IMG/VR virus record: IMGVR_UViG_3300010157_000257
Location: 1 to 23,478 of that record
DNA from: a virus
DNA: 23,478 nucleotides
Strand: one strand, 5' to 3'
Shown here: positions 2,358-15,694 of the stretch, one piece after another
How positions within the stretch are numbered: position 1 is the first letter of the stretch
How the letters are laid out: every line of letters begins with the position of its first letter
Notes under the pieces: model-generated
Told to the model about the DNA's origin: nothing
Seen by the model: the letters and a program-made list of their open reading frames with translations, nothing else
Databases searched by the model: none
Program-made: the position numbers and the translations under genes

Positions 2358-4250
2358 ATGTCATTACAAAAACTACAATTTAGACCTGGAATTAACCGAG
2401 AAGGTACTGACTATTCTAACGAGGGAGGGTGGTACGACTGTGATAAAGTTCGTTTTCGTTCTGGTTTTCCTGAGAAACTTGGTGGTTGGACTCAACTTAC
2501 TAGCACTCAATACTTAGGTGTCTGCCGTAACTTGTGGAGCTGGTCTTCTACTGCAGGTGATCTTTATCTAGCTGTTGGTACAAACAAGAAGTTCTACATT
2601 GAGCTTGGTGGTACTTACTTTGACATTACCCCATACATACAGAGCGATGTAGTTGAAAACCCATTTACTACAAACTACCCAGACGAGCCATACAAGGTTA
2701 CTGTAACAGACATTTCTTACCGCCCTGAAGCAGGCGACTTTGTTGTTTTTGCAAACGCTACAGCTTTTTCTAATGTCATCATTGATGGCGAGTATGTTGT
2801 TACCGATGTTATTAACTCAACTTCTTATACTGTTATTTCAGAAAACCCCGCAAACTCTGCAGCTACAGGCGGTGGTAATGTAACGATTAACTACGAATAT
2901 CCTGTGGGTGGTGATATCTACACCGTAGGTAATGGTTGGGGTGCTGGTCCTTGGGGTCGTGGTGCATGGGGTTCTGCATATACCTCTGGTGTTGGCGTAC
3001 AGCTTCGTTTATGGTCAAGCTCTAACTTTGGTGTTAACTTAGTTTTAGCCCCTCGTGGTGGTCCGATTTACTATTGGGTTCAATACACAGGTCTTGGCAC
3101 ACGTGCTCAGTCTTTAAGTTCTTTAGCTAACACCGCTGGCTTTGCTGGTGAGTATGTTCCTATTGCTACAAACCAAGTAGTTGCATCTTCTATTCAAGAG
3201 TTCGTTATTGCGATGGGGGCTAATTCCTATCAAGAAGGTACACCATCTACTTCGTTTAATCCAATGCTAGTTCGTTGGTCTGACCAAGTTAATCCATTCC
3301 AATGGGTTCCAGAGATTACAAACCAGTCAGGTGAATTCTTACTAACCAGCGGCTCTTACATCATGGGCGCTAGAACGACCCGTCAAGAGATCCTAATCTG
3401 GACTGACTCAACTCTGTATTCTATGCAGTACATTGGTTCTCCTTATGTTTGGGGCTTCCAGATTCTGATGGATAACATCTCGATTATCTCACCTAATGCA
3501 ATGGTTACCGTGAACAACGTGACTTACTGGATGGGTAAAGAGAAGTTCTATATGTATTCTGGACGAGTAGAAACCCTACCTTGCTCACTGCGTCAGTTCG
3601 TATTCCAAGACATAAACCAAAACCAAGCATTCCAAATCTTCTGCGGAAGTAACGAGGCATATAACGAGGTTTGGTGGTTCTATGTCAGCAACGAAAGCGT
3701 AGGCAATACAGTAGATAAGTATGTTATTTATAACTACCTAGACCGTGTTTGGTACTACGGAACTATGGCTCGTACTGCATGGCTTGATACTGGAACTCGT
3801 CAATACCCGCTATCTGCAGATTACAACAACCGTATCCTAAACCAAGAAGCTTCAGTAGACGATGAGGCTTTAGATGTACCCGTAGCTATTAATGCTTATG
3901 TGCAGTCTTCAGACTTTGATATCGGCGATGGATTTAACTTCGGCTTTGTATGGCGTATCTTGCCAGACGTGAACTTTAACGGCTCTAATGTGAATAACCC
4001 ACAGGTTACAATGACTGTTAGACCGCGTCAGAACTCAGGTGCTCCATATACCCAAGCAGATAGCCCACAGGTAATCAGTGATGATAACTATAAGTATGGC
4101 TCAATCTACAACATTCAATTGTTTACAGGTCAGGTCTACACCCGCTTAAGGGGTAGGCAAATGGCATTTAGGATTGAGTCTACTGGACTTGGTACTGCAT
4201 GGCAGCTAGGTAGCCCCCGTATTGATATTAGACCGGATGGTAGACGCTAA
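2358..4250 (+). CDS. Tail nozzle / head-to-tail stabiliser-like structural protein
   Basis: A 630-residue, beta-rich, Trp/Tyr/Gly-rich protein without signal peptide or membrane segment. It opens with LQFRPGINREGTDYSNEGGWYDCDKVRFRSGFPEKLGGW, a header I associate with podovirus structural proteins that bind the neck. The N-terminal part, up to LAVGTNKKFYI, looks like the first blades of a propeller. An inserted beta domain (about residues 105-165, with GEYVVTDVINSTSYTVI) and a Gly/Trp-rich loop (GNGWGAGPWGRGAWGSA) follow. Its C-terminus (FRIESTGLGTAWQLGSPRIDI) resembles the end of P22 gp10-type packaged-DNA stabilisation proteins. Assignment to a nozzle or stopper role is by layout and remembered similarity, not by a defined catalytic motif. 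It could instead be another tail-hub protein. It ends in a TAATG overlap with the next gene. Confidence 0.6.
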   Translation: MSLQKLQFRPGINREGTDYSNEGGWYDCDKVRFRSGFPEKLGGWTQLTSTQYLGVCRNLWSWSSTAGDLYLAVGTNKKFYIELGGTYFDITPYIQSDVVENPFTTNYPDEPYKVTVTDISYRPEAGDFVVFANATAFSNVIIDGEYVVTDVINSTSYTVISENPANSAATGGGNVTINYEYPVGGDIYTVGNGWGAGPWGRGAWGSAYTSGVGVQLRLWSSSNFGVNLVLAPRGGPIYYWVQYTGLGTRAQSLSSLANTAGFAGEYVPIATNQVVASSIQEFVIAMGANSYQEGTPSTSFNPMLVRWSDQVNPFQWVPEITNQSGEFLLTSGSYIMGARTTRQEILIWTDSTLYSMQYIGSPYVWGFQILMDNISIISPNAMVTVNNVTYWMGKEKFYMYSGRVETLPCSLRQFVFQDINQNQAFQIFCGSNEAYNEVWWFYVSNESVGNTVDKYVIYNYLDRVWYYGTMARTAWLDTGTRQYPLSADYNNRILNQEASVDDEALDVPVAINAYVQSSDFDIGDGFNFGFVWRILPDVNFNGSNVNNPQVTMTVRPRQNSGAPYTQADSPQVISDDNYKYGSIYNIQLFTGQVYTRLRGRQMAFRIESTGLGTAWQLGSPRIDIRPDGRR

Positions 4251-4954: not shown

Positions 4955-6979
4955 ATGCCTGTCAATGATCCCAACAATCCGGGTCCGCTAAGCTCTATGG
5001 GACAGTCCATGTTCCCTGGAAGTACTGTGCACACGGCTGAATACAATGTATCTAGCCAATACCCTACGGCTGCTTTAAACGCCATGACAGGCTATGAACC
5101 ATCCACTAACCCCCTAACGGGCGAGGAACTGCCAAACTTTGCTGGTGGTGGCATTGTGTCCCTTGCTACTGGGGGCGAAATTGCAGATGCTTATCGTCAG
5201 TATTTAGGTCGTGATCCTGAAGCAGGTGCTTACGATGCTTGGGCTGGCGCTGATATGGGTTCTTTAATTGCTGGTATAACTGGAAGTCAAGAATATGCAA
5301 ACCGGAGTAGTGGCGGAGGTGGTGGCGGCGGTAGTAGTTCTAGTGGTGGTGGTAGTTCTGGTGGGACTGACATTAACGCTCTTTACCAGCAATATTTAGG
5401 ACGTAATGCTGATGCTTCTGGAGCAGCTACCTATGCTGGCTGGAATCCAGATGATATTCGTAATGCTATTTTAGGCAGCCAAGAATACGCTAACCGTACT
5501 AGTAGTGGGGGTGGCAGTAGTGGCGGAGGTGGTGGTAGTGCTGGTGGTAATGACATTAATTCTCTTTATCAACAGTATTTAGGTCGTGGTGCAGACGCTT
5601 CAGGTATTGCTACCTACGCTGGATGGAGTCCAGACCAAATCAAAGCAGCTATCTTAGGTAGCCCAGAATATGCCAACGCACACCCAGAAGCTGTTAAAGC
5701 TGATTCAGCGCAAAAGATACAAGAGCTAGCTGATGTAGCTTTTAGTAAGTACAGAACAAATCAAAACTACGATGCAGAACTTCAGCAATTAGATGCCTTG
5801 GCTGCTACTAACCCTGCAGCATACTATAAAGCAAAGATTGGTTGGGTTGGTAATCAAATGGGTTGGCAGGCTGGTCAAGGTACATCCTCAGCTACTATGC
5901 CTGGAATGACGGCTGAACTTAAGACCTATTTAGCTGGAGCTAAAGCGGCAGGTGTTACCGATGCTGAAATCAATAGCATTGTTAATACTAATTCTGCATT
6001 ACAACAGAAAGTAAATGCTGAACGAATTGCATCAGATGCTAAGGGCGCGCATGGCTGGATTGATCAGAATCTAGGACAAGGTGTAACTTCAGGTCTTACT
6101 ACTGCAGCAGCTCTGTTAGCTTCTTATTTTGTTCCTGGTGGTGGCGCGCTTGTTGGTATTGGTAAGAACCTTCTTAATAGTACAGAAGATAACTACACTA
6201 AACCTAATGGTATTGGTACTTTAAATTACAAGTCCCCAACTACAGGTACTTCATCTACATCTACCGCCTCACGCACACCGACAACAGTAACTCGTACCCC
6301 TACCTATTCCACAACTTCAAGTACCCCTTCATATAGCAATCCTGGAGATCCTACTTCGGTTACAGGCACTGGAACAACTACTGGGACAGGCACTGGAACA
6401 ACTACTGGGACAGGTATAAATTCTTTAAGTACAAGCAATCCTATTAATGCCAATGGCGATCCAGTTGTACAAGAAGTACCTCTCTTTAAGGCTACACCAA
6501 GCGGTTTGGCTGGTTCGGCTTCTGTTGCTCAAAATGTCACTCAAAACGCTAATCCAACTCAAACTTCCATAGATGAGTTAGCAAGAAAAGTACAAGAACA
6601 ACAACAAATTACCGCACAATTGCAACCAGAATACAACCCAGACTATTACGATATGGCTCAAGGGGGTCTTACAAGTCTTCGTAGCGGCGGTATGGGTGCT
6701 AGTCTTGGTGGTTATTCTGATGGTGGGCAGCTACTAAAAGGCCCTGGAGATGGCATGAGTGACAATATTCCAGCTACAATAGGGAATAAACAACCTGCTC
6801 GCTTAGCGGATGGGGAATTTGTCATTCCTGCAGATGTAGTATCGCACTTAGGTAATGGCTCAACCGATGCTGGGGCAAAGCATTTGTATAGCATGATGGA
6901 AAAGATTCGCAAAGCAAGAACAGGTAACCCTAAACAGGGTAAACAGATTAACGTAAATAAGTTTTTACCAAGAGGTTAA
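4955..6979 (+). CDS. Virion protein with three DUF4214-like repeats and a tape-measure-like C-terminus
   Basis: A 674-residue protein in four parts. Residues 62-74 hold the motif FAGGGIVSLATGG. Three 42-residue repeats follow (residues 76-117, 140-181, 201-242), each with YxQYLGR...G...W/AGW...AI.GS.EYA, resembling DUF4214-type surface/adhesion repeats and separated by Gly/Ser linkers. A helical Ala/Lys-rich middle contains a hydrophobic stretch (about residues 379-400, GLTTAAALLASYFVPGGGALVG). A Thr/Ser/Gly-rich linker (about 425-490) leads to a C-terminal domain (about 565-674) with GPGDGMSDNIPATI and RLADGEFVIPADVVSHLGNG. That last pattern (GxxDxIPA...GEFVI...LG) echoes the C-terminal motif of tape-measure proteins. 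I infer an internal or tail-tip virion protein, possibly ejected with DNA. Two neighbours share the GGIV motif. Confidence 0.55.
   Translation: MPVNDPNNPGPLSSMGQSMFPGSTVHTAEYNVSSQYPTAALNAMTGYEPSTNPLTGEELPNFAGGGIVSLATGGEIADAYRQYLGRDPEAGAYDAWAGADMGSLIAGITGSQEYANRSSGGGGGGGSSSSGGGSSGGTDINALYQQYLGRNADASGAATYAGWNPDDIRNAILGSQEYANRTSSGGGSSGGGGGSAGGNDINSLYQQYLGRGADASGIATYAGWSPDQIKAAILGSPEYANAHPEAVKADSAQKIQELADVAFSKYRTNQNYDAELQQLDALAATNPAAYYKAKIGWVGNQMGWQAGQGTSSATMPGMTAELKTYLAGAKAAGVTDAEINSIVNTNSALQQKVNAERIASDAKGAHGWIDQNLGQGVTSGLTTAAALLASYFVPGGGALVGIGKNLLNSTEDNYTKPNGIGTLNYKSPTTGTSSTSTASRTPTTVTRTPTYSTTSSTPSYSNPGDPTSVTGTGTTTGTGTGTTTGTGINSLSTSNPINANGDPVVQEVPLFKATPSGLAGSASVAQNVTQNANPTQTSIDELARKVQEQQQITAQLQPEYNPDYYDMAQGGLTSLRSGGMGASLGGYSDGGQLLKGPGDGMSDNIPATIGNKQPARLADGEFVIPADVVSHLGNGSTDAGAKHLYSMMEKIRKARTGNPKQGKQINVNKFLPRG
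5180..5680 (+). repeat. Three tandem 42-residue DUF4214-like protein repeats with Gly/Ser linkers
   Basis: Coding repeats at 5180-5305, 5372-5497 and 5555-5680. Repeats 2 and 3 are closest to each other (both YQQYLGR...ADASG.ATYAGW.PD.I..AILGS.EYAN). Repeat 1 is more divergent (YRQYLGRDPEAGAYDAWAG). The linkers (22 and 19 residues) are almost pure Gly/Ser. The pattern points to internal duplication within the gene. Confidence 0.85.
6362..6409 (+). repeat. Perfect 24-bp tandem duplication
   Basis: The 24-base unit 6362-6385 is repeated without mismatch at 6386-6409, and a third copy begins (ACAGG) before diverging. It is in frame and encodes Thr/Gly-rich linker residues (TGTGTTTG-type). An in-frame, exact repeat suggests a recent slippage event in a flexible linker. 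Confidence 0.9.
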
Positions 6980-6981
6980 AC

Positions 6982-8472
6982 ATGGGTATTTTTGATCCAC
7001 AACCACTCCCTTCAAGTCCAACGTCGCAAGGCACCACAACTGGAGCAATCAATCCGTGGGCACAACCGTATGTAACTAACTACTTAAATCAAGCTAATGC
7101 TGTAGTTGCAAACCAAGGCTTTACTCCATTACAACAACAAGCCTATGGCGGAGCAGGAAGTTTGTCGGGTGGCGCAACAACGCAACAAGGGTTGGCGGCT
7201 GCAAACCAAGGTATTACTGGAGCATTAGGTGCTGGTCAGAACTACCAGAATATGGCTACTAATCCAAATTCAATGCAAGCGTATATGAGTCCATATATTC
7301 AAAATGCTTTGGATCCTACACTTAGAGAAATTACACGTCAATACGGTATTACTGGGATGCAAGAACAAAGCGCGGCAACTAACGCAGGTGCTTTTGGTGG
7401 TTCACGTGAAGCGTTAATGGCTGCAGAAAACCAACGCAATAAGAACCTTGCTATGAACCAAGCGATTGGTACAGGTTATCAGAACGCTTTTCAAAATGCA
7501 CAACAAGCGCAACAGTATCAAAATACTTTAGGGCTTCAAGGCAATCAGGCTGCGATTCAAGGTGCCAATCAAATGGCTACTCAAGGACAAGGCATTCTTG
7601 GACTACAAAATCAATTTGGTACACAGCAACAACAATATCCGTACCAACAAGTTGGCTTCCTACAAAGTATGCTCAATGGTCTTCCTGTATCTAGCCAAAC
7701 TACACAAGGCTGGCAAGCAGGTCCTAATAAGGCTTCACAGATTGCAGGTCTTGGTACTGCGGGTGCTGGCATATTGGGTTCATTACTTGGTGGTGGTGCT
7801 AAAGGTTCTCAAGCTGCTAGCCTATTAGATTACTTATTTGGTACAGGTGGTAGTAAAACGGGTGGAGGTACTACTGGCGGTACAGGTGGTACAGGTACTA
7901 GCGCTGTCGGCGCTGCTACTAACTATGGTATTGGCTCTATTAAAAATTGGCTTAATGGAAATCCTTATTCTGGTCAAACTACTGGTATGGGGGATCAAGG
8001 TGCCTCTAGTCCAACATTACCAGACGGTTCTCCAAATCCTAACTATGACGCTTATGCAGATCCTAATGCAACTCAAGATGCAATAAACGCACAAAACGCA
8101 GCTAATCAAACTGGTGGACAGGCGTTTGATTCAAGTGGTAATCCTATAGACAATAGCGTAAGCCAATATGATCCAAATTGGAATGTTGACTCTGGCTATG
8201 TACCCGACAATTCTGTAATCGACTCAAGCACTTACAATCCTAGCGATTTTGGTGGTGGCGATTTTAGTTATGACACTTCTAGCCTCTATGATCCTGGTTC
8301 TTTTAACTTTGACTATAGTAGCGTTGCTGATCTTGGTGGTGACGCTAGTAGTCTTTTTGACTTTGGATCTTTGTTTGGAGCTAAAGGTGGACACATTAAA
8401 GACGGCGGTATTAAACGATACGCAAACGGCGGTTTAGTAGCGCTTGCCATTAAGAACGCATTGAAAGGTTAA
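6982..8472 (+). CDS. Gln/Ala/Gly-rich internal virion protein candidate
   Basis: A 496-residue protein starting three bases after the previous stop. Its N-terminal half is helical and very rich in Gln, Asn and Ala, with YMSPYIQNALDPTLREITRQ, then AGAFGGSREALMAAENQRN and a Gln-rich helix to about residue 230. I recognise this arrangement (MxPYxQNxxDxxxRE...GAFGGSR) as a recurrent uncharacterised phage structural family from aquatic viromes. The centre has a Gly-rich hydrophobic stretch (about 256-285, GLGTAGAGILGSLLGGG). The C-terminal third is Asp/Ser/Tyr-rich and acidic (about 370-465). It ends with HIKDGGIKRYANGGLVALAIKNALKG, whose YANGGLVAL (from residue 480) matches the FAGGGIVAF motif of both neighbours. 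An ejection or scaffold-like internal role is inferred; no enzymatic motif was seen. Confidence 0.5.
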   Translation: MGIFDPQPLPSSPTSQGTTTGAINPWAQPYVTNYLNQANAVVANQGFTPLQQQAYGGAGSLSGGATTQQGLAAANQGITGALGAGQNYQNMATNPNSMQAYMSPYIQNALDPTLREITRQYGITGMQEQSAATNAGAFGGSREALMAAENQRNKNLAMNQAIGTGYQNAFQNAQQAQQYQNTLGLQGNQAAIQGANQMATQGQGILGLQNQFGTQQQQYPYQQVGFLQSMLNGLPVSSQTTQGWQAGPNKASQIAGLGTAGAGILGSLLGGGAKGSQAASLLDYLFGTGGSKTGGGTTGGTGGTGTSAVGAATNYGIGSIKNWLNGNPYSGQTTGMGDQGASSPTLPDGSPNPNYDAYADPNATQDAINAQNAANQTGGQAFDSSGNPIDNSVSQYDPNWNVDSGYVPDNSVIDSSTYNPSDFGGGDFSYDTSSLYDPGSFNFDYSSVADLGGDASSLFDFGSLFGAKGGHIKDGGIKRYANGGLVALAIKNALKG

Positions 8473-8474
8473 GT

Positions 8475-10013
8475 ATGATTGGCGATTACTTTAGCAAGAT
8501 GGCTGCTGCACAAAAATTAAATCCAGCACAACAACAACAATCTGTACAAAATGGAATACTAACTCCCAATATGGCTCAAGACGCACGTCAAGGGCAACCA
8601 AAAGCTATGCCACAAATGCCTGCACAAGAGCAACCACAAGGACTTGAAGGAATGGCACAACAAGTTATGCAAGAAGCAAGCCAAGCTGCTGGTCCAAACC
8701 CTGTTGTATTACAACAAATTGCAAAGCTACGGCAAGAGATACCACAAATCCAAAAGCTAATAGAAATAGATAAGTTAAAACCTTATGAGGGTATTCCATT
8801 ACTAAAAGAAAAAGTAGGGATGTTAAAGAAGCTAGAAGCTCAAGTACAACCAAGCGCAGGTTTAGGTGCATTGCCAACAGCCCAAGAAGGTGTAGCTGCA
8901 TTACCTACTGGCATGAATGAGCAAAGCTTTGCTGGTGGTGGTATTGTTGCTTTTTCTGAAGGCGGCTATAACCCTTGGAGTATTAGTGCACCTAGCGCTT
9001 CTGGTTTAGATAAACGTATTTATGAAGCTATTAAGAACAAACTTAGCGAGTGGAATAAGCCTTGGGGTAAAACAGTTGATGCTACTCCCGAAGAAATTCG
9101 TGGCGCTATGACAGGTAAAAATTTAGCTAGCGAAAAAGAAAAGTTTGCACCTGCCCCTACTGCAGAACAAACAGCTAACTTTATGGGTGACCTTAATCCA
9201 ACTTCTGTAAAAACTAGTGGTGTTCAGTTTGATCCTACGGCTGGTGGTACTTATAGTCCACCTAAAGCCCCTGCACGTGTTTTTTCAAGTGCTCCCCCTG
9301 CGGCTCCTAACGCTGAGGCTCCTCCACCTCCTCCTCCACCTCCTGCTCAAGCAGCTGCTCCTAAAAATGGTGCAGAAGATCAATTTGCTCCGCTTGCTCA
9401 GTTACTACAGGAAGATAGAGAAAATAAACGAAGAGAGCATGAAGGTGATAAATGGTCACGTATTGCAGAGGCTGGCTTTAATATGATGGCTGGGTCTTCT
9501 CCTTATGCACTTACTAACATCGGTGCTGGTGCTGCTCAAGCTATGAAAGGCTATCAGTCAGACGTTGCTGCTGCCCGTAAAGATGAAACAGAAGCTATTA
9601 AGTCTATGGTCGCTCTTGGTATGAAGAAGAACGAAATGGCTCAGACTCTTGGACTTAAAGACCGTGAGTTTGATTTAGAATTGAAGAAGCTTGGTATTAC
9701 TGAGAAGTTATCTGAGAAGCATGGTAACTATTACGATCTAGCTGGTAAGGCATTAGCAACTCGTGCTGCTGCTGCAGGTTCTGGAGCTGGGTCTACTACT
9801 AAGATGGATATCGCTAAATTAAATGCGGTAAAATCTACTTTTGCAACTTTACAAAAAGGCGCTGGAGATATGATGAGTCCAAATTATGGTAAGTCTCCTG
9901 AAGAACTCTGGGCTATGGCAGAATCAATGGTTACAGGTCAAAGTAACGCTGTAGCTGCCCCTGCTCCTGTTGGTACTTGGAGTCCAAAAAGCGGTTACAA
10001 ACCTAATAAATAA
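8475..10013 (+). CDS. Internal virion / ejection protein candidate with coiled coils and GGIV motif
   Basis: A 512-residue protein. Residues 1-75 are Gln/Ala-rich (QQQQS, QVMQEASQAAG). A charged coiled-coil stretch follows at about 76-125 (LRQEIPQIQKLIEIDKL...LLKEKVGMLKKLEAQ). FAGGGIVAFSEGG lies at residues 152-164. A disordered Pro/Ala-rich linker with eight consecutive prolines sits near residues 277-284. A helical block follows (about 300-430) with KWSRIAEAGFNMMAGSSPYALTNIGAGAAQAMKGY and a Lys/Glu-rich helix. The helical block, with its amphipathic 'AGFNMMAGSSPxALTNIG' segment, is one I associate with uncharacterised podovirus structural proteins. No active-site motif is visible. Its place between two GGIV-motif or ejection candidates suggests it is packaged in the virion and passes into the cell with the DNA, which is inference. 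Confidence 0.5.
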   Translation: MIGDYFSKMAAAQKLNPAQQQQSVQNGILTPNMAQDARQGQPKAMPQMPAQEQPQGLEGMAQQVMQEASQAAGPNPVVLQQIAKLRQEIPQIQKLIEIDKLKPYEGIPLLKEKVGMLKKLEAQVQPSAGLGALPTAQEGVAALPTGMNEQSFAGGGIVAFSEGGYNPWSISAPSASGLDKRIYEAIKNKLSEWNKPWGKTVDATPEEIRGAMTGKNLASEKEKFAPAPTAEQTANFMGDLNPTSVKTSGVQFDPTAGGTYSPPKAPARVFSSAPPAAPNAEAPPPPPPPPAQAAAPKNGAEDQFAPLAQLLQEDRENKRREHEGDKWSRIAEAGFNMMAGSSPYALTNIGAGAAQAMKGYQSDVAAARKDETEAIKSMVALGMKKNEMAQTLGLKDREFDLELKKLGITEKLSEKHGNYYDLAGKALATRAAAAGSGAGSTTKMDIAKLNAVKSTFATLQKGAGDMMSPNYGKSPEELWAMAESMVTGQSNAVAAPAPVGTWSPKSGYKPNK

Positions 10014-10021
10014 AGGTAGTT

Positions 10022-13000
10022 ATGCCATTAGTTAATGTTGAAGGTGTAGGTCTAATCGACTTTCCTGAAGGTATGTCGGGCGAGCAAATTGATGCTGCGG
10101 TTAGAAAAGATATCCTTCCACAATACCCCGATATTGCCGCTAAAACAAAACGTGGATGGGGTGAAGCCCTAACTGACGTAGGCGCTAGTGCTATTAAAGG
10201 TGTTGGTGCTTTAGCTCAGTTACCTGGGCAGATTGGGCAATTAGCAGGTGTTGTAGCTCCTACCGAAACTAATACTGGATTGCAAGGTATCGGTAAACAA
10301 ATAGAACAGTTTGGTGAAGAAGCTAAATCTCCAATACTTAAAGGTAAAGAAGTAGTACGTGGACAAAAGATTGAACAAGCAGATGGAATGCTTTCTGAAT
10401 TTGGTACTGCTTTTAAAGAGACAATTAAAGACCCAGCATTACTATCTTCATTCTTTGCAGAACAATTACCAAACTTAGCTGGTTCATGGGGTGGTGGCTT
10501 ACTAGCTAAAGGTACAGCTAAAGCTTTGATGATGGCTACTACTGAACAAGCATTGGCTAAAGTAGGGGTTGCAGGTGCGGTTGGTACAGGCGCTATCCAA
10601 CAAGGTGCTGATGTTGGTTCTGATACTTACGAAACCATCTACAAACGTCTTATTAAAGAAGGTATGGGGGATGAGCAAGCTAATGGTATTGCTTTATCCA
10701 AGGCTCGTGTAGCCGCTTTAGAAGCCGCAGGTTTATCTTTAGGTACAGCCGCACTTCCTGGTGGTACTGCTATTGAACGTGCATTAGTTGGTAAGGGTTT
10801 ACCTGGAGCTGGTGGATTTACTAAAGGTCTTTTGGGCGAAACAGCTTCTGAAACTATCGAAGAAGGTGGTGGTAAGCTTGCATCCAACTTAGGCGTACAA
10901 GAAGTATTTCCTGAGACAAGTTTAACTAAAGGTGTAGGTGCCGCTGCAGGTATGGGCGCACTGGGCGGTGCATTGTTTGGTGGTGTTGCTGGATATGTAA
11001 ATGCAGACCGGGCTACTCCTGAACAGAAACAAATAGTAGCTGATGGTATCGATACTGTACAACAGCTAGAAGATCAAGCTCGCCGTGATGCGTTTGAAGC
11101 CGAGCAAAAAGCTATTGAACTCCGTGCCTTGGAAGAACGTCATGGGTTTACAAATTCAGCAGCATACGCTGAACTATCTGCAGAAGTAGAAAGATTAAAA
11201 GCAAAAGCCCAATTAGCGTTCGCTAAAGCGGATAAAGGTAAAGCAGAGATGTCTGCGTTTGCAGAAGCGCAACCTGATTTGTTTGGAATGGTTACTGCCG
11301 AAAAACAAACACAAGAAGCTGAAGTTCAGCCACCTGTAGAACAACCTAATCAATTATCTTTACCTCTTGAAGATCAACAATCACTTGCACTTAACGCTCC
11401 ACCGCAACCATTAAATTTAAACTTACCTGCTCAGACGCAAGCTCCAGTAGTTCAAGGTCGCCCTATTACGCTAGAAGATATTAAAGGTATGGGTATTGGT
11501 GGTGGTCCAAACGTAAAGATCAAACAAGCTATTTTAGGTAAAGATTTAACTGACCCTAAACAAGCTGCAGAAGTTAAAGCTGCTTTGGAAGAATACGCTG
11601 GTGGTGATCGTAGTGCTAGCATTATTGCTAAAGTAGAAAGATTTTTAAATAGCGCTCCATTCCTAGAACAACAAAAACTTAGTTTGCGTCGCCCGTATGG
11701 TAGTATGAAGAAACCTGGAGTAGAAACTCCAACGGAAGAAGAACAAGCACTCTATCAAGCGGAACTAGAAGCACTACAAACATCGGAGGAACAAAATGCT
11801 GGAAAACCTATTGAACCTCTCAATGGAGGAAATGAGCCAAGCGTTCGCGTGCCTAGCAAGCGACCTGCCATCCCCACCGCAACTAAAAAACCTAAACGAC
11901 GAGGAGTGGTTCCTCCTGTCGATACTACTGGACAACCTATTGGAGCAGAAGTACCAGTCGAGCGTACACTAGGCGCAAAACCATTAACCTTAGAAGAAAA
12001 AGCGGCGCAGGCTATTGCCCAGCGTCAAGCCCCTAAAGGTGGTTACAACCCAGATATTCAAGAACCTTCTGTAGAACTCAGTACTCGTCATGCTAGAGAA
12101 TACAAAGAAGCTATTGGTAACTACTTAGAAAACGCAAACTATATAGGAGCTAAGGCTCTTGATGCACTTGCTGGTGATATGCACGCTGGGGACAACCTTA
12201 CAGATGCTAAGAGAGCGTACCGTGGGTTATCTGAAGAACAAAAGGCTTACGTAGCAGAGAAAACTAAAGAGTTAGAGAAGTACACTCGTCGTGGTGATGC
12301 GTATGCTAAACAACAAAACGAAGAAGTCGCAAGACGTAAAGCTTTCCAAGGTGAACTTGACGAACAAGAGAAAAGCCCTAAGCTTGAACGCATCCTTCCT
12401 GGTTCAACAAACGAAGAGCTTACGCAAGCTGTGCAACGGGGCGACCTTAACGCAGCACTAAACGCAATCGCCAAAGACAAATCTGACACATTTAACATCT
12501 TAGAGAAACTGGTCTCAAATCGCCTTTTGGCAAATAAAGGTAGCCTACCTAAGATTGAAGTTGTACCCGCTGGAACTATTAAAGATGGCGCAGCGCAATA
12601 CAATCCGTTTACCGATACCGTTCAGATCAATGAGGGTGAGGTTGATTCGCATACTGTGCTACATGAAACCGTTCATGGCTTCTTGCACGCATTGATTCAG
12701 AAGTTTGAGGCAGGTGCTAAGAACAAAGGTATTGCTGATCTTAAAACTCTATACGACTTTATTAAAGAGAACCACCCTAACGTAGCAGAAGAATATGGCA
12801 TGTCTAGCTTGACTGAGTTTGCATCTGAACTTATGTCTAACCGCCAATTCCAAGAAACCCTTGCACAGATTCCATATCGTGCAGAAGCTCAAAACTTATT
12901 TAGTGCATTCATACGCGCTGTATTAAACGCATTAGGGTTATCCCCAACATCTAAGTTAAGCGCACTAGCTAGCGGCTTGTTTGCGGCAGATCGTTCCCTT

Positions 13001-15694
13001 GCTATAGGTCGTAAGATTCAAGAGGATGTAGTTACAGGTAAAGAGACCTTACCTACGGCTAAAGTAACCCGAGACTTAGAAGCCATATATAAAGCTACTG
13101 GACCAAAAACAGTAAAGCCTGCTACTACGCCAATACAGTCAGTTCAAAATACTAAGAAAGAAATTAAAAACTTAGCGTCTAGTTTTGAGACTATGTATCT
13201 GTCATCTGATGCTGCTTTAAACAATGCTATTCGTAAGGGTCTAGAAGCTAACGGCAAGGATTGGGATACTACTAAGAACGCAATGCTTGAAATAAGCACC
13301 TCTCAGGCTACTCATGCCGATGCTGTGGCAGATCAATTCTTAAGAGAAGGTAATGTTGAGTACGACCCTAAGTTACATAAGTGGGAAGTCAAATCTGCCA
13401 AAGATAGCTGGGCAAAACTAATTACAAAAAACTTAGCTGATATTGCTAAGAAGTATGGTATTACTCAAGACCAAGCAAACAATTATGCTAACCAAGCTTT
13501 GGTTGCTAGCCGTTTAGATGGACTATCTAAATCAGATAAAGAAATCTACAGTCACATGACCCCTGAGCAGATTAAGGCTGGTCTATCATTCTTTGAAGCA
13601 ATACCTGAGCTAAAGGCAGTTCGAGATAGTTGGAATGCAATTCGTAAAAATGTAATGAAGGTAGCAATTGAAGGCGGTTTGTACAACGAACAACAAGCTG
13701 AAGAACTACTAAAGATTATGGACTATGTGCCATTTTTCCGTATTGAGCAATTAGAACAGAACGCTGGGCCTAGTGAACGTGGTGGTCGTGGTTTACTTAA
13801 CTTTGCTAAGAACTACAAGATTAAAGGTAGTGAGCAGGAAGTTAACGATATCTTTGATAACATGGGTCGTTGGACTAGCTATACCGTATCCCGTGCAGTT
13901 AAGAACCGTTCCGCATTAAGCTTAAAGAATGCTGCAATTCAATTCCTACCAGAAGGCGAAGTGAAAGAATTACGCATAGACGAGAGTACAAAGAAAGAAC
14001 AACACGTAATTGATATATGGGAAAATGGACAACGTAGGAAATACGAATTTTCAGATCCATTGTTTATACATGCTTTCCAAGGTATTGATGGTATAGCTAT
14101 CCCTCATTTTGGTATGGCGCAAGCGGCATCTAATATATTACGTAAGACTATTGTAATGGTGCCTATCTTTTCTATTAGTCAGCTTTCTCAAGATTCGTTT
14201 GGTGCTATGCTTACTTCAGGACTTAAGCACCCTTGGGCATTACCATTAGAAGTAGTTAAAGAATTTACTAAGACTCTATTTAATAAAAGTAAAACCCATA
14301 AAGAACTGACCGCTATCGGTGCAGTAGGGACAAAAGATTATTCTGCAACTACTGGGTTATTGGGTGCTACTAGACGAGAGACTATTGAAAGAGAAGCAGG
14401 GTTAAAGAAGACTCCTATTTGGTCTCGTTTATATAACAGTTTAGAAAAGTTCTCAATGACATCTGATAATGCTGTTCGTCAAGCTGTTTATAATTTGACC
14501 ATGAAAGAAACTGGGGATAAAGCTTTAGCTACTGAGAAGGCTTTTGAACTTATTAACTTTAAACGTACAGGTGCTAGCGCTAAGGTGCAATTGCTTCGTC
14601 AGGTAATACCATTCTTTGGCGCATACTTGCAAGCACAAAACGTTATCTATAAGACTCTAGCTGGTAAAGGCATATCTCCAGTACAACGTAAAGAAGCCCA
14701 TCGTATCTTAGCTAGTAATGCTTTGAAGATCGGTGCTTTAGCGTTTATGTATGCCGCCCTTGCAAGTGATGATGAAGAGTATCAGAAGATGGATCCAGCT
14801 ATACGTGACCGTCATTTATTAATTCCTGGTACAAACTTCATGCTCCCTATGCGTAGCGATTTGACTTTAATGCCTAAGTTAATTGCGGAATACACCTATC
14901 TTGGTATGACAGATAATGGCTTTACGGATGGTAAAAAGATTCGCCGTGCTATGACTGATGCCCTTGTCAATGCAGTACTAAGCCCAACCGTTGCACCGCA
15001 AGCAATTAAACCAGCCTTAGAGGTATTGGTAAACTACGACTTCTTTACAGATCGCCCAATTATCGGACAGGGTATTGAGCACAAAATTACTGCAGAGCAG
15101 TATACAAATAGTACATCTGAATTTGGTAAGTTTATTGGTAGTTCGGGATTGATTGCACCTGTGAATGTAGACCACTTGGTTAAAGGCTATATGGGTACTG
15201 TAGGGGGATTAGGGTTAATGTTTACAAATGCTGTTGTAAACGCAGGTTCAGACCAACCAAAACCCGAAAAGAGTCTCCAAGATACTGTTTCTTCTGTACC
15301 TGGATTGAGTGCGTTTTTTGCAAAAGAGTATGGCAACGCAGATAAGAACGATTTCTATGAGTTACGTAAAGATGTAGATAAGGCAGTAACTACATTTAAT
15401 TCAATGAAAAAGCAAGGGCGTGTTGCAGAGGCTAAAGAGTTTTTAGAAGAAGGTACATTGAATCCTCTTAACCCATTTAGCCCAAATGTAAAAGACTTAC
15501 TTAAAGTTAATAAGCAGGTGGACAACATTAACAACCAGCTAACCAAGCTAAGAGATTACGAAAAGAAAATATACGACTTGCCTGAGTCTAGGATGAGTGC
15601 AGAAAAGAAAGGTGAAGAGATTCGCCGTGTTCGGGAGATGGAGAAAGTATATTTAAGTAATGTGCACAAGCTACGCCAAATGGCTGGCTATTAA
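10022..15694 (+). CDS. Very large ejection (internal virion) protein with HExxH metallopeptidase-like segment
   Basis: A 1890-residue protein, the last late gene of this block, preceded by AAGG eight bases before its ATG. The N-terminus has the short DFPEGMSGEQIDAAV motif common at the start of large phage structural proteins. Residues about 150-330 contain several Gly/Ala-rich hydrophobic stretches, notably 304-326 (GVGAAAGMGALGGALFGGVAG), which could enter membranes. Charged coiled coils follow (about 340-410). A zinc-peptidase-like signature, HETVH at 881-885, is preceded by a strand-turn-strand (AAQYNPFTDTVQIN) and followed by TEFASEL (Glu932/Glu936, candidate third ligand). The C-terminal ~800 residues carry further hydrophobic segments (about 1375-1395 and 1560-1580) and resemble large polyvalent-protein associated regions. 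The inferred role is an ejected protein that builds or opens a channel through the cell envelope, as T7 gp16 does. Protease activity is untested. Confidence 0.65.
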   Translation: MPLVNVEGVGLIDFPEGMSGEQIDAAVRKDILPQYPDIAAKTKRGWGEALTDVGASAIKGVGALAQLPGQIGQLAGVVAPTETNTGLQGIGKQIEQFGEEAKSPILKGKEVVRGQKIEQADGMLSEFGTAFKETIKDPALLSSFFAEQLPNLAGSWGGGLLAKGTAKALMMATTEQALAKVGVAGAVGTGAIQQGADVGSDTYETIYKRLIKEGMGDEQANGIALSKARVAALEAAGLSLGTAALPGGTAIERALVGKGLPGAGGFTKGLLGETASETIEEGGGKLASNLGVQEVFPETSLTKGVGAAAGMGALGGALFGGVAGYVNADRATPEQKQIVADGIDTVQQLEDQARRDAFEAEQKAIELRALEERHGFTNSAAYAELSAEVERLKAKAQLAFAKADKGKAEMSAFAEAQPDLFGMVTAEKQTQEAEVQPPVEQPNQLSLPLEDQQSLALNAPPQPLNLNLPAQTQAPVVQGRPITLEDIKGMGIGGGPNVKIKQAILGKDLTDPKQAAEVKAALEEYAGGDRSASIIAKVERFLNSAPFLEQQKLSLRRPYGSMKKPGVETPTEEEQALYQAELEALQTSEEQNAGKPIEPLNGGNEPSVRVPSKRPAIPTATKKPKRRGVVPPVDTTGQPIGAEVPVERTLGAKPLTLEEKAAQAIAQRQAPKGGYNPDIQEPSVELSTRHAREYKEAIGNYLENANYIGAKALDALAGDMHAGDNLTDAKRAYRGLSEEQKAYVAEKTKELEKYTRRGDAYAKQQNEEVARRKAFQGELDEQEKSPKLERILPGSTNEELTQAVQRGDLNAALNAIAKDKSDTFNILEKLVSNRLLANKGSLPKIEVVPAGTIKDGAAQYNPFTDTVQINEGEVDSHTVLHETVHGFLHALIQKFEAGAKNKGIADLKTLYDFIKENHPNVAEEYGMSSLTEFASELMSNRQFQETLAQIPYRAEAQNLFSAFIRAVLNALGLSPTSKLSALASGLFAADRSLAIGRKIQEDVVTGKETLPTAKVTRDLEAIYKATGPKTVKPATTPIQSVQNTKKEIKNLASSFETMYLSSDAALNNAIRKGLEANGKDWDTTKNAMLEISTSQATHADAVADQFLREGNVEYDPKLHKWEVKSAKDSWAKLITKNLADIAKKYGITQDQANNYANQALVASRLDGLSKSDKEIYSHMTPEQIKAGLSFFEAIPELKAVRDSWNAIRKNVMKVAIEGGLYNEQQAEELLKIMDYVPFFRIEQLEQNAGPSERGGRGLLNFAKNYKIKGSEQEVNDIFDNMGRWTSYTVSRAVKNRSALSLKNAAIQFLPEGEVKELRIDESTKKEQHVIDIWENGQRRKYEFSDPLFIHAFQGIDGIAIPHFGMAQAASNILRKTIVMVPIFSISQLSQDSFGAMLTSGLKHPWALPLEVVKEFTKTLFNKSKTHKELTAIGAVGTKDYSATTGLLGATRRETIEREAGLKKTPIWSRLYNSLEKFSMTSDNAVRQAVYNLTMKETGDKALATEKAFELINFKRTGASAKVQLLRQVIPFFGAYLQAQNVIYKTLAGKGISPVQRKEAHRILASNALKIGALAFMYAALASDDEEYQKMDPAIRDRHLLIPGTNFMLPMRSDLTLMPKLIAEYTYLGMTDNGFTDGKKIRRAMTDALVNAVLSPTVAPQAIKPALEVLVNYDFFTDRPIIGQGIEHKITAEQYTNSTSEFGKFIGSSGLIAPVNVDHLVKGYMGTVGGLGLMFTNAVVNAGSDQPKPEKSLQDTVSSVPGLSAFFAKEYGNADKNDFYELRKDVDKAVTTFNSMKKQGRVAEAKEFLEEGTLNPLNPFSPNVKDLLKVNKQVDNINNQLTKLRDYEKKIYDLPESRMSAEKKGEEIRRVREMEKVYLSNVHKLRQMAGY

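Follow-up and report, generated by a model that had tools for sequence, protein, structure and literature searches.

Two of four consecutive genes in a 23.5-kb record of an uncultured virus (IMGVR_UViG_3300010157_000257, analyzed over its whole length and referred to here as the window) carry, as a conserved family trait, a short motif, [F/Y/M]AxGG[I/L]V, that coincides exactly with the mapped cleavage site of the tape-measure protein of phage T5. The four genes, A to D, probably encode, as one cassette, the ejection proteins of a short-tailed phage, which would be present in the virion; the motif is conserved in both A and C across relatives, the two genes occur together, and A ends in a module homologous to the C-terminal region of tape-measure proteins. 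As the best single explanation, with a probability of about 0.45, we propose that the motif is a processing or hinge signal of injected conduit proteins.

The window holds four copies of the motif, all on the plus strand. In protein A, FAGGGIVSLATGG (5138-5176, residues 62-74) stands directly before three DUF4214-like repeats, and MAQGGLTSLRSGG (6653-6691, from residue 567, containing MAQGG) lies just before a GEFVIPADVV element (6812-6841, residues 620-629, plus strand). The motif-like YANGGLVAL (8419-8445, residues 480-488) is found at the C terminus of protein B, and FAGGGIVAFSEGG (8928-8966, residues 152-164) includes the most conserved 9-mer of the protein C family. A sequence-only reading of this DNA had reported three of these copies together with the GEFVIPADVV element, all of which we recover at the same positions, and had missed the copy at 6653-6691. 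The four occurrences of [FYM]A.GG[ILV] in the 13 window proteins compare with an expectation of 0.087, and none of 5000 composition-preserving shuffles reaches that number. Across relatives the distribution is very unequal: the motif is found in 54 of 63 A proteins by one regular expression (and in more by eye), in 136 of 137 C proteins (119 of these 137 loci had been chosen by the motif itself), in 11 of 116 B proteins, where the YANGGLVAL-type copy is thus only occasional, and in none of 107 D proteins. Strictly, then, the motif characterizes A and C and not all three genes, and because it is rare in B relatives and absent from those of D, the appearance of three consecutive motif-bearing proteins is partly particular to this phage.

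Protein C (8475-10013, plus strand; 512 amino acids (aa)), which combines a disordered motif region with long helices, belongs by sequence comparison to a very divergent uncultured family, whose members are ~20% identical to the window protein. A DNA-level scan of IMG/VR with every possible coding of [FY]AGGGIVAF returned at least 119 loci; among the matches listed, 119 of 119 translate the 9-mer inside a C-type protein; its position is nearly always residue ~80-180, the exceptions being two copies at ~410-466 and a few that lie in truncated frames, and a long open reading frame (ORF) usually lies downstream of the C-type gene where the contig continues. This contradicts a random scatter of the motif among unrelated glycine-rich proteins. 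As a control for selection bias, C genes were also taken from loci fetched via B, with the motif unused: all 18 retain a version of it (YAGGGMVAF, SADGGIIGY, AAGGGMVSF, MAGGGIIAF and similar), which is again the best-conserved 9-mer of the protein. In an AlphaFold2 model of C, built from an 88-member alignment, long helices flank the motif and the predicted local distance difference test score (pLDDT) falls below 50 at residues 142-158 and 160-178; the motif region is therefore predicted to be disordered and yet is the most conserved part of the protein, as would be expected of a linear motif.

In Pfam searches four of the 88 members of the C alignment contain an SLT transglycosylase domain and one an M23 domain. 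A pattern search located four SLT-like motifs in C relatives, 40-120 residues after the AxGG motif, and PHROG matches, each by few members, include 'DNA ejection protein', 'internal virion protein with endolysin domain' and 'lytic tail protein'. Direct protein queries retrieved no C relatives from viral contigs, named phages gave no match at 1e-3 or better, and structure searches gave no PDB match (best E 3.8); the BFVD hits were confined to proteins from uncultured phages, all of them uncharacterised. In one relative (L006:7740-10112) B and C form a single 790-aa ORF with the motif retained at residue 390, either a natural fusion or an assembly effect.

Protein A (4955-6979, plus strand; 674 aa), a putative ejection protein, provides the connection to long-tailed phages. 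Its C-terminal tape-measure-type module (6653-6976, plus strand) consists of MAQGG, GPGDGMSDNIPA, GEFVIPADVV and two helices, and a hydrophobic, transmembrane-like segment lies upstream (6095-6163, plus strand; residues 381-403). The last 108 residues align through FAxGG, GPGDGxSDxIPAxIGxxQPARLADGEFVIPA and the two helices. Sequences in this alignment match 13 PHROG families, nine of which are tape-measure proteins. With the A-position protein of phage DSL-LC04 (GPGTATSDSIPAMLSDGEFVFTAKA) as a one-step intermediate, 384 phage records are matched, and 55 of 60 rows taken at even steps down that ranking are annotated as tape measures. A profile built from the module picks up the tape measures encoded by MiniMac (E=1.9e-12, two copies), 1M3-16 (4.5e-8) and Pan1 (2e-6) as well as podovirus HTVC027P gp82 (E=8e-9), values that hold for a 20-sequence set, and has a weak match in the PDB to the solved tape-measure chain of mycobacteriophage Douge (E=0.0098). 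The link to tape measures put forward from the sequence alone is thereby borne out.

The tape measures with a GPGTGTSDSIPA-GEFV C-terminal region, namely lambda gpH, Douge gp16, MiniMac, Pan1 and 1M3-16, share with A the succession of xAxGG, GPG-T/D-G-x-SDxIPA, GE[FY]VI and helices, with a hydrophobic stretch upstream in gpH. A differs from them in its 674-aa length, its longer PARLADGEFVIPA version and a cassette that lacks tail-tube genes. Considered as a whole tape-measure protein, A has the C-terminal GPGxGxSDxIPA-GE[FY]VI region; it shows no very long coiled-coil body of the kind that sets tail length, being made up instead of DUF4214 repeats and low-complexity linkers, and it does not lie between tail-tube or chaperone genes and those for the distal tail or hub, its neighbours being a gp10-like gene, B, C and D. 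In DSL-LC04 and GB2A the A protein is annotated as 'tail tape measure protein', most likely on account of the shared module. It had also been suggested that a tape-measure C terminus was split among the three proteins; the complete module is confined to A, C forms a helical family of its own and the B copy is sporadic, and we reject a fragmented tape measure.

The module and the motif-bearing C protein go together: where C has the motif, the module is present in 68 of the 70 candidate A genes that precede it, in some as an RVARDEVIF variant. Direct protein queries found no A relatives in viral contigs, a scan of genome contigs with the A profile gave only six environmental loci, a Pfam search of the A C-terminal end returned no relevant family, and a scan for lambda gpH relatives yielded lambdoid copies that hardly differ from one another and could not serve for a profile. 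None of the papers searched contains the strings FAGGGIV, SDSIPA or GEFVIPA in a phage context, which is weak evidence of novelty as peptide strings are rarely printed in main texts. The three DUF4214-like repeats of A (5189-5677, plus strand; PF13946 E=5.4e-9 over two stretches, the third by eye), with their YxxYLGR…GSxEYAN pattern and poly-Gly/Ser joints, are unlike the A proteins of most relatives.

Mapped processing sites bear directly on what the motif may do. The T5 tape measure pb2 is cut after R1127, between its hydrophobic stretch and its muralytic region (PMC10038345). The sequence there is SFVPR-AEGGMMYPGVSYQMGEHGTEVVTP, with the cut at the hyphen, so that cleavage falls exactly on an xAxGG[h] motif (R-AEGGMM), and GEHGTEVVTP behind it is a GEAGPEAVIPL-type element as named in the sequence-only reading. 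RAxGG and GE[HN]GxE are kept in T5 relatives down to Vibrio phages at 37-41% identity, and the order of hydrophobic stretch, xAxGG and GE element is common to lambda gpH, T5 pb2 and A. In gpH the motif reads FATGG (residues 733-737), and a cut between F733 and A734, if it occurred, would leave a product of 79.8 kDa. Pb2 resembles A in its xAxGG[M], the following GExGxExxxP and the hydrophobic stretch upstream, and its cut separates off a C-terminal part; it differs in having R before the cut instead of F/Y/M, in belonging to a long-tailed phage and in being one protein rather than A plus C. Of the two parts of the pb2-type site, xAxGG and then the GE element, A has both and C only the first. 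P22 gp7, in turn, starts with KGGKG after processing by the host protease OpdA (PMC8402733), that is, it is cut between E and KGG. The P22 proteins gp7, gp20 and gp16 resemble the cassette in their gene order after gp10 and in the processing of gp7 before GG by a host protease, and differ in that neither an AxGGIV motif nor a GEFV module is annotated and that B is unlike gp7 and gp20. The chance of a cut falling at most three bonds before a GG is ~1% for pb2 and ~7% for gp7 (five GG each), as estimated post hoc on two proteins.

On the processing and hinge reading, [F/Y/M]AxGG[I/L]V would be a short linear signal that marks the proteins forming the DNA conduit once they have been driven into the host, common to short-tailed ejection proteins and long-tailed tape-measure proteins alike. 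A protease, presumably host-encoded by analogy with P22 gp7 and T5 pb2, would cut at or just before A-x-G-G during assembly; such a cut in a flexible stretch would release what follows, which in A is the GEFV-helix module and in C the helical domain, accompanied in some cases by a murein-degrading domain. The family facts on which this builds are solid, namely the tape-measure module of A, the invariant motif of C, the A-C linkage and the absence of the motif from D. Several points weigh against it. Only one mapped cut, that of T5, falls on the full motif, and the P22 cut is a bare KGG that was looked at after the idea had arisen. HK106 has the GE element and lacks the GG, and lambda gpH, alike by eye (LYRLMRGYATGGYV), scores E=0.13 with the A-module profile, below significance. 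In T5 the position usually taken by F/Y/M is occupied by R, which leaves room for a different protease, and nine conserved residues plus a downstream GG exceed what a protease usually needs, so a binding motif fits as well.

This last point leads to a close rival, compatible with the processing reading, which we hold to be a tentative possibility: the AGGGIVAF strand could dock onto a conserved partner (the portal, the hub, the A module or another subunit), with co-assembly in the procapsid and joint exit in the absence of any cut. The extreme conservation of a 9-mer within a disordered stretch, the strict co-occurrence of motif-bearing C with GEFV-module A and the fact that AxGG and GE elements form one unit in tape measures all suit docking, whereas the copy number of the motif varies in A and the motif is mostly missing from B and D, contrary to what a single co-assembly dock predicts; nor does any structure show the contact, the solved tape measures resolving only their last 32-42 residues. 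It is improbable, by contrast, that the motif is a membrane-active, fusogenic peptide whose Gly-rich hydrophobic stretch enters the host membrane at ejection. Its Gly and hydrophobic composition and, as papers citing Boulanger 2008 relate, the fusogenic and muralytic activities near the T5 pb2 C terminus would agree with this, but the motif has only ~5 hydrophobic residues, its surroundings in C are Pro/Gln-rich or acidic, and in A, gpH and pb2 the stretches that are clearly hydrophobic do not coincide with it.

We consider it very unlikely that D itself is the protease cutting A and C at the motif. The D gene lies directly behind C and its product carries HETVH, but HExxH is missing from 12 of 29 complete D proteins (>1500 aa) encoded beside a motif-bearing C, and the T5 and P22 cuts need no D; on the first count we also reject the D HExxH as a general protease. 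An artefact of composition, for which the glycine-rich nature of A and B might speak, is refuted by the shuffles and by the position and conservation of the motif. Among the roles that the sequence-only reading had left open, packaging, membrane insertion and cleavage, cleavage is supported as one possible role by the published pb2 cut on the motif; the interpretation given in that reading is, as a whole, partly supported.

These results touch on the kinship of short-tailed ejection proteins and tape-measure proteins and on what marks a tape measure for cleavage. A recent P22 paper remarks that conduit proteins from different types of phage have little obvious in common (PMC10883804), and the authors of a DT57C study found no motif conserved across the C-terminal fragments of tape measures (PMC10713586). 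With a module that bridges both protein classes and a motif on the mapped T5 cut, both questions can be tested directly, and the fact that the T5 cut falls exactly on the motif suggests a similar maturation of the DNA-delivery proteins in short-tailed and long-tailed phages. A wider proposal is that the C-terminal module of ejection proteins and tape measures is homologous and that a host protease cuts both at a common maturation signal, [x]AxGG[h], as one ancient processing step preparing conduit proteins for injection across tailed phages; in our view it is less likely than not.

The gene context agrees with a short-tailed phage. The conserved block opens with a gp10-like tail or head-closure 'stabilization' protein (2358-4250, plus strand; phrog_3287 E=1.9e-68; podovirus 'phage stabilization protein' matches including HTVC027P), followed by a gene for a 224-aa protein and then by A, so that at least three large proteins are encoded right after the tail-completion genes, as in the ejection class. 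Pelagiphage HTVC027P (gp75, gp82-gp85) has the same order of gp10-like protein, A, B, C-position protein and D, with A and B homologous; it differs in that the motif has drifted, to YADGGRI and FNEGGRV in its A and to FRKGGNV in its C-position protein. HTVC023P-type phages, HTVC027P included, have been described as Podoviridae (PMC9599517). Roseobacter phages CRP-901 and CRP-902 are, like HTVC023P and HTVC027P, relatives available in culture. In a 60-kb relative (L253-L255) the cassette is adjoined by terminase, 830-aa portal, major head protein and fibre proteins, and the 20 structural-region proteins scanned gave no tail-tube, tail-chaperone or separate tape-measure match; from their gene content, the relatives' genomes look short-tailed.

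Protein B (6982-8472, plus strand; 496 aa) is a homologue of HTVC027P gp83 (hhalign E=3e-16) and of a DSL-LC04 protein (hhalign E=1e-22); its candidacy as a P22 gp7 or gp20 homologue was rejected (hhalign E=0.24 and 0.95). B C termini come in two alternatives, PPSxxSQLAGLGLxGLxLYNxLG in most relatives (L028, L046, L066 and others) and a GGLxxLALHNM-like form in the rest. Protein D (10022-15694, plus strand; 1890 aa) is a giant polyvalent or ejection protein (PF18857 E=2e-22; phrog_18222 E=2e-39) with HETVH at 12662-12676 and LPD38 near its C terminus; it lacks the AxGG motif. Its length among relatives ranges from ~1000 to ~3000 aa, and homologues are variously annotated as RelA/SpoT, DNA methylase or portal. 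Between A and B, many of the marine relatives contain an additional gene for ~135-167 aa (L253:7453-7881; L145:16894-17328), which the window lacks; it corresponds to phrog_7642 and is annotated as a GNAT acetyltransferase in CRP-902, a possible acetyltransferase within the ejection cassette.

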